Shown: piece after piece, positions 1 through 17,287 of the stretch
How the letters are laid out: the number at the start of each line of letters is the position of its first letter
Numbering within the stretch: the stretch's first letter is position 1
Assembly: GCA_030536095.1 (NCBI GenBank)
Contig: JAUNQQ010000007.1
Span: 1 to 21,061 of the forward strand
Length of the DNA stretch: 21,061 bases
Origin: Candidatus Saccharimonadota bacterium
Lineage (GTDB): Bacteria; Patescibacteriota; Saccharimonadia; Saccharimonadales; Saccharimonadaceae
Direction of reading: 5' to 3'
Translations under genes and position numbers: made by a program
The notes under the pieces: model-generated
The model's database searches: none
Seen by the model: the letters and a program-made list of their open reading frames with translations, nothing else
What the model was told of the DNA's origin: nothing

Positions 1-96
1 AAGGCGCTTTAAAGTTATTTACTTCTCTGCGCCATATTGGCGGAGGTTCACTTTTTATTCTATGGCTTTGCGTTTTCTTGCAAAAGTTCTGCAATA

Positions 97-243
97 AAAA
101 GCGACACCGCACTGGTGTACTAAATTACAACAGAAGCTTTTACCAAAACTCATGCTGATTATGCGATGTCGCAACTTTTGCTTGAGTTTTGGCGGACCAG
201 CTTCCTACAAAAAGTGGGCTTCCAAAATTGTAATTTAGTACAT
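97..243 (-). ncRNA. Unidentified structured RNA or leader, ends paired
   Basis: I do not recognise the family. On the minus strand a promoter (248-276) should start transcription at about 241-243. That is the edge of a perfect 15-bp inverted repeat (228-242 with 116-130) closing the RNA. Nested inside are 6 bp (199-204 with 133-138), 10 bp (183-192 with 143-152) and a small apical hairpin (162-173). A terminator-like hairpin follows (114-118 with 104-108, then five U at 96-100). No open reading frame fits. It could be a stand-alone small RNA, a riboswitch-like leader for a gene left of the window, or a small inverted-repeat element. The structure and promoter are seen; function is unknown. 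Confidence 0.6.
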
Positions 244-247
244 TTTA

Positions 248-276
248 ATCATAACCCAAATAAAAGCAGAAGTCAA
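248..276 (-). promoter_or_regulatory. Promoter of the 97-243 RNA
   Basis: Minus strand: TTGACT (276-271), a 17-base spacer and TATGAT (253-248). Each box matches the sigma-70 consensus at five of six positions. The predicted start falls at the outer edge of the 15-bp inverted repeat. Confidence 0.6.
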
Positions 277-286
277 GGGTTTTTCG

Positions 287-313
287 AAAAAATCGCCCAT
301 AAAGTGGGCGATT
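287..313 (-). terminator. Intrinsic terminator of the aldolase gene
   Basis: Read on the minus strand: a 9-bp stem AATCGCCCA (313-305) with TGGGCGATT (299-291), loop CTTTA, running into a tract of six T. It lies 21 bases after the aldolase stop codon. Confidence 0.85.
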
Positions 314-333
314 AGATAGATAAATAAGTTAGA

Positions 334-2184
334 TTATTTTATTGCGTCACAGTTTGCGATAAGGCGGGCCTTAAAGGCGTCCTTAGCAGCGTCAGAATTC
401 TCGTTATCACCCTTCCAGGTGACAAGAGCGGGATCCTGCAGAGCACGAGCAAAAGAGAACGTGACTGGCCATGGGAAAGGACCGTTTTTAGTAATTTCGC
501 GAAGATTTTCGGTCGCTTGTTCGGGAGACTGACCACCGGAAAGAAAGACAACGCCACCGAGCTTACGCGGAACATGCGCACGGAGAACCTGGGAAGTGGC
601 ACGGCCGACTTCTTCGGTGGTGGATTGAATCGGATATTGTTTTCCAGCCATAACCATATTTACTTTCAGGATGCAAGATTCGAGCTTAATTCCCTGTTTA
701 CCGAGAGCGTCAAAGAGACAATCGAGGATTTTTGAGGTGGTATCAATACTAGTTTCGAGAGTATAGTTCCCATCATAAACGAGTTCCGGCTCAACAATTG
801 GGACAATGGAGGCATCTTGACAAATCTTTGCATAAGTGGCAAGAATATCAGCATTTTTCTCAATCGCCATTTCGGACGGATAATCAGTTCCCCTCACCTC
901 AAAGGCAGCGCGCCATTTTGCAAAACGAAGCCCGCGTTCATAATATTCGTCTAATCGCTCCCTTAAACCATCGAGTCCGTCAGTATATTTTTCTTCGGAA
1001 TCAGGAAAATTCACTAGACCCTTATCGACTTTTACGCCGGGAATTATTCCGTGCGCAGTAAGATACGAGACAAAATCACGACCATCATCAGATAATTGTT
1101 TTGTTGTTTCGTCAAATAGAATAACACCATTTATATATTGTTCCAATTCGGGAGTAGAGAGGAAAATATTACGATAATCGCGGCGATGTTCCTCATCATC
1201 GGGGATAAGCAGAGACTCAAACTTCTTATGGATAGACCCACCAGACTCATCGGCAGCGAGAATTCCCTTCCCAGGAGCCATTAGCTGCGCAGTAATCATC
1301 CGAAGGTCGGTTTCTTCGGCACGCTGATTTTTAGCGAGAGACTCGACGCGCTTTTTCGGAACAGTACCGAGAAGGGTAGAGTTTTCGACATTTACCTTTG
1401 CCATAAGCAGGGCATCTTTTACGGAGTAATCATGAAGCAGGGCAGAGAAAATTGTTGAGGCGATAATAGAATGACAGGTTAGATGCGTCATCAAATCCGT
1501 CCGCTCAATTCGCCAACTCTGATGAACAGTGCCGAGAGTAATACTACGATCGGAAATACGACAGACCGAACCAGAATAATTAGCATCTGTCAAGCCGTTT
1601 AGATTGGGGCCGGAAAGGCTAGAATCGGACTTTTCGGATTCATCAACAAAAATCATACTAGCAAAAGCCAATAACTTCTTATCGGCATCAGATGGATTAC
1701 GTGGGACATAGACGGCAACACGCGTATGCGAGGAAATTGACAAAAACTGACGAAGGTTTTTTACTAAGTCGTCCGTTACGCCGGCGCTACGGTCGACATA
1801 AATCCAATCAACAGAGTCAGTAGGGGTTACCCAAATGGTTTTTTCTCTCTCGTTGCCAGTAAGATAGGTGATATTATTTCCGCGGCTAAGCATATAACGG
1901 TATTCCTGAGCCTCCTGCGCATTATCAACAACACTACCATCAACAAAACCAAGGCGCGCACCGGCGATTTTTGCACTGTGTTCGAAACGATTCATTACTT
2001 CCATCGCGACGGCTGCACCACCAAAAATCGCAGTGCGAGTAAAGAATTTTGCGGCAGACTTTCCGTCGAATTTTAAATCGAGCCAAGGTATTCCCTGCTC
2101 ATCTTCTTCAAAGTGATTCCGACGCTCGTCGAGACGGAGATAGACATCTTTTATTACGTTCCCTATAATTAACACATTGCTCAT
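334..2184 (-). CDS. PfkB-like pseudokinase fused to class I fructose-bisphosphate aldolase
   Basis: The C-terminal half (about residues 293-616) is a class I fructose-1,6-bisphosphate aldolase. It shows GKGILAADES (305-314), FAKW (421-424), PIVEPE (462-467), the Schiff-base lysine K507 in ILKVNMV, and LSGGQS (548-553). It should cleave fructose-1,6-bisphosphate into DHAP and glyceraldehyde-3-phosphate by the metal-independent route. The first 280 residues resemble a PfkB/ribokinase fold (VLIIGNVIKDV at the start, GGAAVAMEV at 55-63, and a C-terminal helix pattern at 235-274). The Asn of the first PfkB signature appears replaced by Val, and the catalytic GAGD region reads as THLTCH, so kinase activity looks lost. 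At 616 residues it is nearly twice a normal class I enzyme. The mRNA should be leaderless: TATAAT ends 6 bases before the ATG. The aldolase call is firm; the kinase origin is by motif only. Confidence 0.9.
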   Translation of the reverse strand: MSNVLIIGNVIKDVYLRLDERRNHFEEDEQGIPWLDLKFDGKSAAKFFTRTAIFGGAAVAMEVMNRFEHSAKIAGARLGFVDGSVVDNAQEAQEYRYMLSRGNNITYLTGNEREKTIWVTPTDSVDWIYVDRSAGVTDDLVKNLRQFLSISSHTRVAVYVPRNPSDADKKLLAFASMIFVDESEKSDSSLSGPNLNGLTDANYSGSVCRISDRSITLGTVHQSWRIERTDLMTHLTCHSIIASTIFSALLHDYSVKDALLMAKVNVENSTLLGTVPKKRVESLAKNQRAEETDLRMITAQLMAPGKGILAADESGGSIHKKFESLLIPDDEEHRRDYRNIFLSTPELEQYINGVILFDETTKQLSDDGRDFVSYLTAHGIIPGVKVDKGLVNFPDSEEKYTDGLDGLRERLDEYYERGLRFAKWRAAFEVRGTDYPSEMAIEKNADILATYAKICQDASIVPIVEPELVYDGNYTLETSIDTTSKILDCLFDALGKQGIKLESCILKVNMVMAGKQYPIQSTTEEVGRATSQVLRAHVPRKLGGVVFLSGGQSPEQATENLREITKNGPFPWPVTFSFARALQDPALVTWKGDNENSDAAKDAFKARLIANCDAIK

Positions 2185-7022: not shown

Positions 7023-8237
7023 CTAAAACTTTTTTAGCCAGCCAAAGAGGCCCTTACTATCACCTTTTTTCTTTTTTAGTTTTACGGTGCCTTCGCGTGG
7101 GGCTTCTTGAATACCTTTCATGGCCAGGCCGACGGCGGCGGCGTATTCCGGACGGTAAATCGACTCGGCCACACCGCCGAGATTATGCGGGACGCCAATT
7201 TTTACTGCTGCCTGAAAAGCCTCCTTTGCGAAATAATCAATATCCCTCATGCGTGCACCACCGCCGATTAAAACAATTCCCTCTGGTAATCGTTGGTCGT
7301 ATTTTGCTCGCACTAACTCGCCTCTTGCCCGCTCAAAAATCTCCGCCACACGATCCCTTACGACCTGATTGACTTCTTCTCGCGAAAAATTCAACTCCGT
7401 CCGACCTTTTCGTACAACAATGTCTTTTTCGCCATCCTCAAATAGACCAGTCACAAATCGGCGCTTAATATCCTCCGCCATTTCAGTATCAATCTGTAAA
7501 ACTATGGCGAGGTCGTTCGTGATATTATTCCAGCCCACTGGCACTACGCCGAGATATTGTAAATCACCCTCCTCATAAACTGCTACTCCGGTCGTCGCAG
7601 CACCCAAATCAATTACCCCTACTCCGTTTTCGATTTGCTTCTCTGATAAAACTGCTCTTGCCCCCGCCATTACGCTCGGTTCGACTAATTCCGTCGTAAC
7701 GCTCGCTGCCTCGGTCGCCTTTTTTAGATTTAGCAAATTAGGCGTAAGCGTTGAAACTACGCAGGCCTCCATCTTTAGTCGGACCCCAGTCATTCCCATC
7801 GGGTCTTTTATTCCATTCTGGTCATCTAGGGTGTAATCCAGAGGTAAAACATCTAAAACTGCGCGGTTCGCAGCAATGCGCCCGTCCACTGCGGCCGCTT
7901 CAACGCGATCCAAATCTTCCGCGGAAATCTCATGGTCTGCCGTGCCGACAGCAATAACACCCTCTGCGCGTTCACTAGTAATTTGTGCGCCATTAATAGA
8001 CACGGTTGCATTATTCACCTGATAACCACTCATCCGCTCGACTTCCCCCAGAACTCGGTCAATCGCCTCGCTCGGACCAGTCAGATTGGCTACCACCCCT
8101 TTCCTCATACCGATATTTTTACCTTCATTATACCCCACTACCGCCAACTCGCCCTCTTTTCCCTCGGTCAAAACTACTGCTCTAACATTTTCTGTCCCGA
8201 TGTCAATTCCAACTGAAAATTTTGCCTTTTCATCCAT
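7023..8237 (-). CDS. ftsA: Cell-division protein FtsA
   Basis: A 404-residue actin-like ATPase that anchors FtsZ to the membrane. The actin-fold motifs are VGIDIGTENVRAVV (phosphate 1), GVIDLGAATTGVAVY (phosphate 2) and IVLIGGGARM (adenosine). The SHS2-type 1C region lies in the N-terminal third. The C-terminus KGLFGWLKKF after a lysine-rich linker is a typical amphipathic membrane-targeting helix. The gene is divergent from ftsZ across 158 bases, whereas ftsA and ftsZ are usually consecutive in one operon. Its -10 element is weak (TAATAT, six bases before the ATG), so it may be leaderless. Confidence 0.95.
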   Translation of the reverse strand: MDEKAKFSVGIDIGTENVRAVVLTEGKEGELAVVGYNEGKNIGMRKGVVANLTGPSEAIDRVLGEVERMSGYQVNNATVSINGAQITSERAEGVIAVGTADHEISAEDLDRVEAAAVDGRIAANRAVLDVLPLDYTLDDQNGIKDPMGMTGVRLKMEACVVSTLTPNLLNLKKATEAASVTTELVEPSVMAGARAVLSEKQIENGVGVIDLGAATTGVAVYEEGDLQYLGVVPVGWNNITNDLAIVLQIDTEMAEDIKRRFVTGLFEDGEKDIVVRKGRTELNFSREEVNQVVRDRVAEIFERARGELVRAKYDQRLPEGIVLIGGGARMRDIDYFAKEAFQAAVKIGVPHNLGGVAESIYRPEYAAAVGLAMKGIQEAPREGTVKLKKKKGDSKGLFGWLKKF

Positions 8238-8249: not shown

Positions 8250-8339
8250 CCACAACCACCATTTTTTTTCCATAAAATGTTTAATTTTTGTTTTTACTTT
8301 TTAGGATTCTTGTTCAAGAGAAAAATCCAAAGAAAGTAG

Positions 8340-8367
8340 TTGAAATTTTATTCAGGTGTGCTATAAT
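8340..8367 (+). promoter_or_regulatory. ftsZ promoter
   Basis: TTGAAA (8340-8345), a 16-base spacer and TGC-TATAAT (8362-8367). The start should fall near 8374, giving a leader of about 22 bases with GAGGAG four bases before the ATG at 8396. A short inverted sequence, TCTTGTTCAAGA (8308-8319), lies just upstream and could be an operator; nothing supports that further. Confidence 0.8.
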
Positions 8368-8395
8368 GAAGGAAATTGAAAAAGTGAGGAGTAAT

Positions 8396-9622
8396 ATGCC
8401 GGAAATAAAACCAACAGAGGTGGAAAGCGTAGCAAGCATTAAGGTGATTGGGGTAGGTGGAGCTGGTGGATCAGCGGTGGATCGGATGAAGGAGGTAGGT
8501 CTTTCGGGCGTGGAATTTATTGCGGTAAATACAGATGCACAGGCGTTACATCATTGTGATGCTGATACAAAGGTACATATCGGAAAGGGCCTGGGGGCGG
8601 GAGGTGATCCAGAAAAAGGACGCGAGGCAGCAGAGGAAAGTCGGGATAATATCGCGAAGGCGTTGGATGGGGCGGATATGGTGTTTATTACCCTGGGAGC
8701 AGGAGGTGGAACTGGGTCGGGAGCTGGGCCGGTAGTAGCGGAAGAAGCGAAAAGTCGAGATATTTTAACGGTAGGCGTAGCGACAAAACCATTTACCTTT
8801 GAGGGGGCGAAGCGACGGGAAAATGCGGAGGCGGCGATTGAGAGATTGGCGCGAAATGTGGATGCGCTGATTACAATTCCGAATGACCGACTTTTGCAGA
8901 CGATTGACCCACGGACGCCGTTACTAGAGACATTCAAAATTGCAGATGATGTACTCAGGCAGGGAGTACAGGGGATTTCGGAGCTAATTACGGAACATGC
9001 GCTGATTAATCTGGACTTTGCGGATGTGAAGGCAATTATGAAAGAAGCTGGGTCGGCGCTAATGGGAATTGGGCGAGCAAGTGGCGAAAATCGGGCGGTG
9101 CTTGCGGCGCAACAGGCGATTGAGTCGCCACTAATTGAGGTAAAAATCGAGGGAGCGAGAGGAGTATTATTCTCGGTGTCTGGTGGCTACGATATGAGCA
9201 TGAGTGAAATTCAGGAGGCGGCAGAGGTTATTACAGGAGCAGTGTCGTCGGATGCGAATATTATCTTCGGTGCGTCAATTCGGCCAGACCTTGAGGATGA
9301 GATTGTAATTACAGTAGTTGCGACAGGATTTGATTCGGATTATTACCGAGAAATTGAGCGTGAAAAGGCGGCGATTGCGACGGCGGAAAAAATGATTGAG
9401 CCGGAGCCAGAACCGGAACCCGAACCAGAGCCAGTAGTTGAGGCGAAGGAGCCGGGAAAATTGACGACGGATGAGCAGGTGCCAAAGGTTGATTCGGCAG
9501 ATTTTACGGCAGAAAACAAGGTGAATATGTGGGATTCGATTAAGACGCCACCAGCGAATAATAATGATGATGACTTAGATATTCCGCCGAGCCTCCGAGG
9601 AAAATTGAGAGGAAAGAAGTAA
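8396..9622 (+). CDS. ftsZ: Cell-division GTPase FtsZ
   Basis: A 408-residue tubulin homologue forming the division ring. [11 protein letters not shown] (21-31), NTDAQAL (45-51) and the tubulin signature [11 protein letters not shown] (101-111) bind [14 protein letters not shown] is the T7-side loop region. A linker with five EP dipeptides follows the core. The tail [14 protein letters not shown] is the peptide that should bind FtsA. I choose 8396 because an upstream in-frame start region (from 8288) spans the promoter, the ATG at 8366 lies inside the -10 box, and GAGGAG precedes 8396. It is first in a unit with nrdR and a small thioredoxin-like gene. Confidence 0.95.
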
Positions 9623-14925: not shown

Positions 14926-16125
14926 TTATAAAATAATCCCACCGCCAAGACAAGTCTCGCCGTCGTAAATTACGGCGCTTTGACCAGAGGCGGGACGACG
15001 AGTTTTTTCAGGGAAAATGAGTTTTTGAGCCTCATAAATGGCGGGAAGAAGTTCGCCACGATGACGGAGACGAACCCGAATGTTTCTTGGCGGAGTTTCA
15101 CGGAAAAAGACATCCTCAAGTATAAGTTCCTTAGTCCAAAGATTTTTATCCTGGAGATTACGCGAGACATAGACGAGATTATTTTTCATATCCTTTTTTA
15201 CGACATAATAGGGGAGACCGCCACCAATATCAAGACCATGGCGCTGGCCGAGAGTATAAAAAACCGCACCGTCATGATAACCGCAAAATTCGCCAGTTTC
15301 AAAATCAAGAATTTTTCCGGGTTGCTGATATTTTTCGGGAAGAAAATCGCGGAGAAAATCTTTCATGTTCGCCTCGCCGACGAAACAAACACCCATGGAC
15401 TCTTTTTTATAAGCATTAGCAAAACCAAATTGCTCAGCAAGTTTTTTCACCTCAGGCTTAGTAAGATTGCCAAGTGGGAAAATGGTATGGGCAAGAGAAA
15501 CGGCGGAAATACGATAGAGAAAATAAGTCTGATCTTTATTATTGTCAGCAGCGAGAAGAAGTTGTGGGGTTTTACTTATGGCTTTTTGCCCAAAACTGGT
15601 ATTGGCTAATTTTATATTGTTATTGCTTAAATTTAAAGTACTATTGGTTTTTTCTATTTTGGTATTGGTTAATCCCAAATTGGTATTGCTTATTTTTAAA
15701 CTGCTATTGGTTAAGTCTAAACTGCTATTGCTTGACAAAACGCGCGCATAATGGCCGGTAGCGATAAGGTCGGCGCCTTGTTCGCGAGCAACTTCATAGA
15801 ATAGCTTAAATTTTATTTCCTGATTACACATAATATCAGGATTGGGTGTTCTTCCCTGTTTAAATTCAGCGAGCATATAGTCAACGACTTTTTGCTTATA
15901 TTCGGTTTCAAAATCAAAAACACGAAAATCGATGCCGAGCTTTACGGCGACACGCTTTGCGTCGGCGAGATCTTCAGCCCAGGGACATTTCATACCCGGA
16001 AGATCGCGCGACCAGTTTTTCATATAGACACCAACAACCTGATAGCCTTGATCAAGGAGAAGTTTAGCGGAAACGGACGAATCGACGCCACCGCTCATAC
16101 CTACAAAAACCGTGGACTTAGACAT
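14926..16125 (-). CDS. mnmA: tRNA-uridine 2-sulfurtransferase with inserted heptad repeats
   Basis: MnmA thiolates U34 of Lys, Glu and Gln tRNAs. The PP-loop is GMSGGVDSS (9-17). The catalytic cysteines are C100 in NPDIMCNQEIKF and C247 in SMGVCFVGE. IATGHYAR (121-128), DQTYFLY and TLGQRHGLDIGGG are family landmarks. Between GHYAR and DNNKDQTYFLY sits an extra block of seven 7-residue repeats (132-180), absent from ordinary MnmA. I place the start at MSKSTVFVG (16125), giving 399 residues; a longer frame would extend deep into iscS. The start overlaps the iscS stop by eight bases. IscS supplies the sulfur, so the operon makes sense functionally. Confidence 0.95.
   Translation of the reverse strand: MSKSTVFVGMSGGVDSSVSAKLLLDQGYQVVGVYMKNWSRDLPGMKCPWAEDLADAKRVAVKLGIDFRVFDFETEYKQKVVDYMLAEFKQGRTPNPDIMCNQEIKFKLFYEVAREQGADLIATGHYARVLSSNSSLDLTNSSLKISNTNLGLTNTKIEKTNSTLNLSNNNIKLANTSFGQKAISKTPQLLLAADNNKDQTYFLYRISAVSLAHTIFPLGNLTKPEVKKLAEQFGFANAYKKESMGVCFVGEANMKDFLRDFLPEKYQQPGKILDFETGEFCGYHDGAVFYTLGQRHGLDIGGGLPYYVVKKDMKNNLVYVSRNLQDKNLWTKELILEDVFFRETPPRNIRVRLRHRGELLPAIYEAQKLIFPEKTRRPASGQSAVIYDGETCLGGGIIL
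15586..15732. repeat. 21-base minisatellite inside mnmA, seven copies
   Basis: The core TATTG(G/C)(T/C)T recurs at exact 21-base steps; its TTG is at 15602, 15623, 15644, 15665, 15686, 15707 and 15728. On the coding strand each copy encodes seven residues of pattern [STA]-N-[STN]-x-[LI]-x-[LIK]. The phase is kept and the copies have diverged slightly. Confidence 0.95.
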
Positions 16126-17287
16126 TGAGACGAGTCCTTTCGGAATTAACAGCGGTAGCGATTTTTTTCGCGGCGAGTATAATATCTTCTTCGGTATTAT
16201 CCTTACCAAAAGTAATACGAAGCGAGCCCTGAATTATGTCGTCGGAAAAACCACAAGCCTTTAGGACGTGAGACTTTTCGCCTTTAGAGGCGGCGCAGGC
16301 AGCACCAGTTGAGACATAAACATGAGCAGATTCGAGAAGATAAATCAGGCGCTCAGCATCCAGCCCAGGAAAACTAACTGGGGAAAAATTGGCGAGTTGC
16401 TTCTTTGGATTGCCGAGAAACAGCGGAGTAATTTCGGAAAAATCAGTGAGAGTTTTCTGAAAAAGCCGCTTTAAATGTTGAAAATTCTTACGGGAGGAAG
16501 TGAGATGAGACCTTGCCTCACCCGCGGCAACAGAGAAGCCAACAAGAGCGGGAACATTCTCGGTACCGGAGCGGAAATTTTGCTCCTGACCGCCACCGAG
16601 AATAAGCGGATGAAGTCTTGTCTCGCGAGAATGGTAAAGTGCGCCGATGCCCTTTGGGCCATACATCTTTGCAGAATTAAACGTAAGCAAATCAACGCCG
16701 AGGCGACCAACGGAAATCTCGAGAAGGTTTAGTGCCTGAGAAGCGTCGGACATGAGGAAAATTGGACGAGAAATTCCGGCTAGCCTCCGACGGAGGCGTT
16801 CAGATTTTACCAATTCGGCAATTTCCGCGATTGGCTGAATAGTGCCAAGTTCGTTATTGACGAGGGCAACAGAGATAAGCTCAGTCTCATCATCAAGATT
16901 TTTGCGCAAATCGTCTAAATCAAGCGCGCCATCTGGTTTCACTTTTATTTCTCTGCCACCATGGAATTTTGCGGGGACGCGGACGGAGTCATGCTCAGTA
17001 GCAGAAAAGAGAATTTTACCAGATTCTGAGACAGCCGTCAAGGCGAGATTATTGGATTCGGTGGCACCAGAAGTAATAATTAGATCGTCGGATTTGGCAC
17101 CAATGATGTGGGCGAGCTGGGACTTTTTTTCTTCATAATCATCGCGAACAAATTTTGCGGGAAGATAGGGCGAGCCAGGATTGTAAAATTTCTCAGAAAA
17201 ATAAGGGGTCATAGCCATTAGCGCTTTATCAGAAAGCGGAGTTGCGGCAGCATAGTCGAGATAGATTGATTTTTCGGTAGTATTCAT
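16118..17287 (-). CDS. iscS: Cysteine desulfurase (IscS/NifS type)
   Basis: A 389-residue PLP enzyme that takes sulfur from cysteine as a persulfide. YLDYAAATPLS (9-19), ATEHDSV with H99, D181 in MSDASQA, the PLP lysine K207 in SAKMYGPKG, FRSGTENVP, and the persulfide cysteine C331 in STGAACAASKG are present. The usual histidine just before the PLP lysine is replaced by alanine. The ATG at 17287 is chosen because TATAAT lies seven bases upstream; a longer frame would start upstream of that box. The downstream partner is mnmA, so tRNA thiolation is the probable main role. No iscU or suf genes are nearby. Confidence 0.93.
   Translation of the reverse strand: MNTTEKSIYLDYAAATPLSDKALMAMTPYFSEKFYNPGSPYLPAKFVRDDYEEKKSQLAHIIGAKSDDLIITSGATESNNLALTAVSESGKILFSATEHDSVRVPAKFHGGREIKVKPDGALDLDDLRKNLDDETELISVALVNNELGTIQPIAEIAELVKSERLRRRLAGISRPIFLMSDASQALNLLEISVGRLGVDLLTFNSAKMYGPKGIGALYHSRETRLHPLILGGGQEQNFRSGTENVPALVGFSVAAGEARSHLTSSRKNFQHLKRLFQKTLTDFSEITPLFLGNPKKQLANFSPVSFPGLDAERLIYLLESAHVYVSTGAACAASKGEKSHVLKACGFSDDIIQGSLRITFGKDNTEEDIILAAKKIATAVNSERTRLNV

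Follow-up and report, generated by a model that had tools for sequence, protein, structure and literature searches.

T-box riboswitches bind tRNA via defined motifs and precede amino-acid genes. The HMP-PP (thiS) riboswitch, a small riboswitch for a thiamin precursor, has an aptamer embedded in the terminator, and RfaH and LoaP are NusG-type proteins that act in antitermination over long operons. Among the described RNA motifs, the trpB motif is a terminator/antiterminator attenuator with the alternative pairing in the shoulder of a stem. In a folate-gene motif, the terminator loop may form a pseudoknot with the preceding hairpin, which would prevent termination. Both motifs are taken here as given in PMC11109978.

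Here, we describe a leader RNA at the left end of the window, that is, the whole stretch of 21,061 nucleotides from a Candidatus Saccharimonadota bacterium that was analyzed. The leader is a member of a large, apparently undescribed RNA family that precedes many surface, membrane, and DNA-modification genes in Saccharibacteria, which are symbionts of very small size. As in the HMP-PP riboswitch, the sensing part and the terminator would overlap in sequence; the leader does not match it in sequence, and thiamin genes are lacking here. With the T-box riboswitches it would share a leader-encoded choice between terminator and antiterminator, but no Rfam match was found for the leader family, and a T-box was rejected since neither the window nor eight relatives match the Rfam T-box model. 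Antitermination in the leaders of surface or envelope genes, predicted for this family, is known from RfaH and LoaP systems; here, in contrast, one terminator is involved and the competing helix is part of the RNA itself. The closest likeness is in layout: a leader terminator hairpin with an overlapping alternative helix before a gene, as in the trpB motif and in riboswitch expression platforms. The leader differs from the trpB motif in that an apical loop would capture the 3′ strand of the terminator, and no overlap in genes or taxa is seen in the sections of the paper cited above. A proposed hairpin–terminator pseudoknot is shared with the folate-gene motif as described there, whereas here the 3′ half of the terminator is covered, the covariation is three-way, and the genes and organisms differ.

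At the gathering threshold, Rfam 15 returned only tRNAs for the whole window; over the leader, window positions 1–400 and eight relatives had no matches other than weak and unrelated ones at a relaxed threshold. No description of the leader was found in the open papers searched on riboswitches, attenuation, phase variation, and structured RNAs in Saccharibacteria and Patescibacteria, a survey that covered few subscription papers or preprints. Saccharibacteria, Patescibacteria, and TM7 are absent from the main text of the structured-RNA discovery papers PMC11109978, PMC8632094, and PMC6429828.

Architecture of the leader in the window

The window is contig C50 of a genome of 752,288 bases in 84 contigs. 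The RNA runs leftward, and its elements are arranged as follows.

248–276, minus strand: promoter-like TTGACT (276–271), a 17-nt spacer, and TATGAT (253–248)
228–242, minus strand: 5′ arm of stem P1, beginning at about +1; 15-bp inverted repeat with 116–130, 100%
194–217, minus strand: U-rich, asymmetric hinge or side hairpin in the 5′ arm, from the minimum-energy fold; its position differs among members
143–192, minus strand: apical hairpin with the box in its loop; arms 143–166 and 169–192, 75% complementary
162–172, minus strand: apical box, RNA GCGACATCGCA, complementary to the tail, from complementarity and relatives
116–130, minus strand: 3′ arm of P1, inverted repeat with 228–242, its end shared with the 5′ strand of the terminator hairpin
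104–118, minus strand: local terminator-like hairpin T1, ACACC-AGTGC-GGTGT, from sequence and folding
101–111, minus strand: tail, the 3′ half of T1 and the pairing partner of the box, from complementarity and covariation
96–100, minus strand: U-tract, from sequence
1–95, minus strand: remaining 5′ untranslated region to the contig end; similar sequence on contigs C73 and C62 enters surface-protein genes

The original prediction of a minus-strand promoter at a 15-bp inverted repeat that closes a nested hairpin RNA is confirmed by this layout, with each feature found at the coordinates given for it. The RNA of window positions 260–60 folds with −64.6 kcal/mol, compared with −43.9 (sd 4.1) for shuffled sequences (z −5.1; 0/200 as good). 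On the minus strand, the terminator-like segment at 118–104 is followed by CGCTTTTT. The box at 162–172 and positions 101–111 are 91% Watson–Crick complementary over 11 nt, the odd position being a G-U pair; this complementarity to the 3′ half of the terminator, also predicted, is above chance and is accompanied by compensatory changes in relatives. A second predicted block, 80–88, is fully complementary to 173–181 over 9 nt. The complementarity is thus present, but the block was rejected as a conserved element: a second block of at least 8 bp is found in 6% of 95 leaders versus 7% when the downstream pieces are exchanged among leaders.

A gene beyond the left edge had been proposed as one option. 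Window position 1 is the contig end, and window positions 1–43 are identical to the final 43 bases of contig C62, the end of which enters a gene for a secreted-looking surface protein. From this 43-base overlap, we infer that the surface-protein gene of C62 is the leader's own gene. The copy on C73, 86% identical, enters a paralogue.

Elsewhere in the window, a 616-aa ORF (334–2184, minus strand) appears by eye to join a sugar-kinase-like part to a class I fructose-bisphosphate aldolase. The ORFs at 7023–8237 (minus strand) and 8288–9622 (plus strand), ftsA-like and ftsZ-like by eye, are divergently transcribed, and an mnmA-like ORF (14926–16209, minus strand) has an asparagine/serine/leucine-rich repetitive insertion (…SLDLTNSSLKISNTNLGLTNTK…).

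Members of the family and their genes

The window's own genome has six leaders. A covariance model, R1, finds six places and a broader model, R2, finds five; the tail pattern with up to three mismatches also finds five places, and the reversed pattern none. The sixth leader is located on C28. Each copy has a TATAAT-like box, a stem a few bases on, an apical box, and a terminator, and the stems are unlike in sequence, yet they pair. Repeated copies of the same element had been named as the mark of a mobile inverted repeat; the copies found are not one repeated sequence, since their stems differ and pairing is kept. A MITE-like element was likewise rejected: within the own genome, the best DNA match to the window ends at position 118 without reaching the stem, and the six stems differ but pair. 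Contigs C50, C62, C37, C82, and C28 end inside leader or downstream-UTR repeats, and the genes of half the leaders are hidden because the assembly breaks fall in these repeats.

A strict pattern matches 21 of the 174 genomes of the genus (among the matches listed, 52 versus 1 for the reversed pattern). Extended by four T, it matches 17 of 392 genomes in the order. R1 has matches in 74 of the 174 genus genomes, with up to 22 per genome, per-genome match counts here including opposite-strand echoes of single leaders. In the order, R2 finds the leader in 90 of 344 genomes and in 43 of 149 genera; in a phylum sample, the figure is 32 of 379 genomes. The R1 and R2 tallies are upper figures, since short matches of 20–30 bits include plain palindromic terminators. 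R2 scores plain palindromic terminators at 20–28 bits over about 30 nt, and its short, weak genome matches are therefore probably false. Among the matches listed, the named contigs with true members are titled Candidatus Saccharibacteria or Patescibacteria, with the exception of L149, a bacterium MAG contig carrying a true family member, and L197. The latter, from an Acutalibacter isolate and 229 kb long, has at 227–772 (+) and 903–980 (+) a Saccharibacteria-type leader and a phage-type integrase upstream of it; either transfer or contamination would account for this leader. A full-length, high-scoring match is found in 2 of 34 viral-contig loci. One (L379, leader at 2300–2369) has ORFs that by eye resemble terminase, portal, and capsid genes. 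In the other (L371, 5722–6147 and 6200–6272), the leader precedes a small membrane-anchored protein, which resembles proteins behind bacterial leader copies.

The sets of leaders used below were assembled as follows. Of 157 distinct terminator-like sites, 76 pass and 81 fail a loose test (box pairing 9 or 10 of 10, P1 at least 7 of 9). The 71-leader set consists of these 76 minus six chance matches from other phyla, recognized by eye (L122, L125, L144, L153, L169, and L229), plus L081, a g1 leader without a box, which was added by hand. The 155-leader set joins the 97 forward matches of R1 (in 98 sources) to 58 of the 61 sources of a later set, L298, L302, and L305 being dropped as weak. R1 was built from box to tail only and does not include P1, yet 94 of its 97 matches have a −10 box followed by a perfect P1 of 9 bp. 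When upstream regions are swapped, a 9-bp P1 with the box still turns up in 111 of 477 tries, since GTCTTA is frequent at the P1 base. The −10 box in the 97 relatives is perfect in 58, with one mismatch in 34 and two in 5; P1 begins 6–8 nt past it in 95, in a stem search that favored a nearby −10 box. The pairs of P1 covary in relatives.

The first ORF lies within 120 nt of the match end in 53 of 58 loci, at a median distance of 38 nt in those 53, so that a second promoter would hardly fit in between. Behind three of the six own-genome leaders, those on C73, C14, and C28, lies a surface-protein gene, cut by the contig end on C28; the other three meet a contig end before any gene. Elsewhere in the genus, most first ORFs are secreted-looking by eye. 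The curated cut-off of Pfam Fib_succ_major is reached in L048, with scores below it in L054, L074, L077, L081, and L087, and other first ORFs encode a lysozyme/amidase protein (L088) and a YgjV-like protein (L058). Outside the genus, the first ORFs include N6/N4 and C5 DNA methyltransferases, an EcoRI-type methyltransferase, a Tsp45I-type restriction enzyme, a type IIG enzyme, and GmrSD-like and OLD-like proteins. Further first ORFs there encode T4SS pilins, an Ltp lipoprotein, and collagen-like, OmpA-like, and DUF4352 proteins; many others encode small membrane proteins that match no Pfam family. The DNA-modification/defense kind makes up 12 of the 84 first ORFs outside the genus, L336 and L345 by candidate family only.

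An enrichment of defense or DNA-modification genes specific to the leader was considered and rejected, since upstream control ORFs also match PADLOC families; the 50 controls match 41 families, each in one member, a tally of families rather than of distinct proteins. The gene association may therefore belong to the region and not to the leader. By Pfam, seven of the 50 upstream ORFs are serine resolvases and one is a phage-type integrase. A similarity cluster of seven upstream ORFs (L271, L274, L277, L316, L317, L321, and L323), taken to be the seven resolvases (serine recombinases), is divergent from the leader in those cases for which coordinates were compared. The leaders often sit in mobile, defense-rich regions.

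Two pairings of the tail

When the box is picked by sequence motif alone, a1–t10 is paired in 68 of 70 leaders (G-C 34, A-U 28, U-A 6), a10–t1 in 69, and a11–t0 in 63, and for each of these pairs 0/5000 shuffles are as good. The interior pairs of the motif are near-invariant and hence carry little information on covariation. Across 42 sequences, 98.3% of the box:tail cells are paired versus 28.7–64.8% for slid versions; for a broader 52 sequences, the values are 95.8% versus 36.5–63.2%. RNAalifold on 19 compact members gives a 13-bp box:tail helix and no other helix. Five box:tail pairs have at least three Watson–Crick types among 97 leaders (0/2000 shuffles as good), so that the compensatory changes for which the original prediction had called are plentiful. 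The pairing follows the leader in cis: in 18 genomes with at least two leaders (53 leaders), unpaired positions number 0.49 with a box's own tail versus 1.03 with a sister tail, and 0/20,000 permutations are as good. An A-tract facing the U-tract is conserved in box:tail, two bases beside the U-tract pair only in box:tail and covary there, and conserved bases are found beside the box.

The same tail also forms T1. In 155 leaders, T1 has a mean of −8.2 kcal/mol and box:tail a mean of −21.7 kcal/mol, and box:tail is the more stable in all 155, when isolated pieces are compared and the closing cost of the pseudoknot is ignored. T1 is better than −4 kcal/mol in 151 leaders and nearly absent in four; some T1 hairpins have 8–10 bp and −13 kcal/mol. 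The hairpin ends 1–2 nt short of the U-tract. The tail is other than GGTGTC in 37 leaders, 27 of which retain T1 (≤ −6 kcal/mol) plus box:tail, T1 being weaker or nearly absent in the other 10. Both pairings survive in the 27 because the T1 5′ strand and the box change along with the tail, the types (T1 5′ strand/tail/box) being GACACC/GGTGTC/GGCACC, GACAACC/GGTTGTC/GGCAAC, GACAGCC/GGCTGTC/GGCAGCC, and GACGACC/GGTCGTC/GGCGAC. Several of the 27 are near relatives, and there are therefore fewer independent events than 27. P1 and T1 overlap in the bases GAC, and those P1 pairs hardly vary.

Since T1 co-changes with both box and tail, T1 and box:tail are, on sequence evidence, two mutually exclusive folds under selection. 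The same evidence establishes the parts of the leader, both helices, their conservation, and the covariation in cis. The attenuator logic originally proposed is upheld to the extent that the two helices exclude each other and both covary. The leader is promoter-proximal in front of a gene and has a terminator-like hairpin with a U-tract and an exclusive, selected helix. It is probably a gene switch, since its sequence history points to exclusive folds around one transcription stop signal.

Five leaders (L038, L039, L053, L073, and L076) have a GGTGTCTA-like sequence 3′ of the U-tract, right before the ribosome-binding site. It complements the 3′ arm of P1 together with GACACC, is absent from other copies, and may form a further competing helix.

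A proposed attenuator and its alternatives

We favor, with modest confidence, a cis-acting transcription attenuator leader in which T1 is the terminator and box:tail the antiterminator. RNA polymerase would start at the P1 base, and P1, the hinge, and the apical hairpin would fold, leaving the box in the apical loop. In one state, the tail would pair with the upstream-adjacent GACACC to form T1, giving a short dead-end RNA. In the other, the tail would pair with the box (up to 13 bp), T1 would not form, and polymerase would continue to the gene about 40 nt on. The first tail bases lie in the T1 loop and would be out before the T1 3′ strand, thus serving as a toehold for the box. Because P1 would compete with T1 for GAC, P1 plus box:tail would be one state and T1 the other. 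On this reading, T1 would terminate, box:tail would antiterminate, and a signal would bias the choice; candidates are a protein, a small molecule, or elongation speed plus nucleotide supply. T1 is favored as the terminator because some T1 hairpins reach 8–10 bp and the tail bases that pair with the box would emerge before T1 closes.

Several points tell against this attenuator. Box:tail pairs the 3′ strand and reaches the U-tract, and could itself be a terminator stem. T1 is weak on average and stops short of the U-tract, four of the 155 leaders are nearly without it, and L081 has no box. Long members would require the box to reach back across a long stem. A fold-back rule of equal lengths (stem below the hinge equal to stem above plus box helix) is unsupported because the lengths are anticorrelated (Spearman −0.52, 71 leaders).

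Because box:tail reaches the U-tract, the sign of the switch could be the opposite, with box:tail flush with the U-tract as a strong terminator (OFF) and T1 as a weaker, leaky alternative. The greater stability of box:tail in every leader, the covarying bases beside the U-tract that pair only in this helix, and the conserved A-tract agree with such a sign. We nevertheless consider it fairly unlikely: some T1 hairpins, with 8–10 bp and −13 kcal/mol, resemble complete terminators, in which case transcription would stop in both states, and the box, enclosed in a hairpin loop, may have too much bulk to fit the exit channel of the polymerase. An autonomous small RNA by default, with the apical loop acting in trans on other tails or RNAs and the gene reached by leaky read-through, is improbable. 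Box and tail types are indeed common to sister leaders, and T1 with the U-tract would yield a defined short RNA, but the boxes follow their own tails within genomes and the leader directly precedes a gene.

The pseudoknot-like pairing and the conserved bases beside the box would also suit a ligand riboswitch with an aptamer made of the apical hairpin and the box:tail pseudoknot. That reading is quite improbable given stems free to vary in sequence and length, few conserved unpaired bases family-wide, and downstream genes that share no single metabolic pathway. It is likewise quite improbable that the leader is a DNA-level inverted-repeat element, mobile or recombinational, in which the terminator is incidental. 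The many copies, the resolvases and the integrase upstream, and the two viral contigs speak for it; the G-U pairs, the strand-specific promoter, the terminator, and the three-way co-change suit RNA instead, covariation and promoter-proximal placement already argue against it, and no common recombination site is seen because stem sequences differ between copies.

With the attenuator as the preferred reading, we put forward, tentatively and as something short of an even prospect, that self-contained RNA switch cassettes (promoter, attenuator, gene) occur across Patescibacteria and travel with surface, restriction-modification, and phage-borne membrane cargo under one common signal. If so, one signal, e.g., host contact, nucleotide supply, or phage attack, would control a variable, environment-facing gene set. 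An apical loop that pairs with the terminator 3′ strand, with three-way covariation, would be an unusual switch design. Hardly any work has addressed how episymbiotic Patescibacteria regulate their genes, and a 2024 review describes the mechanisms behind their cell-state differentiation as completely unknown (PMC11665869). The leader family is a concrete, repeated regulatory element ahead of surface, DNA-modification, T4SS pilin, and phage-borne membrane genes, and through it regulation in these episymbionts becomes testable.
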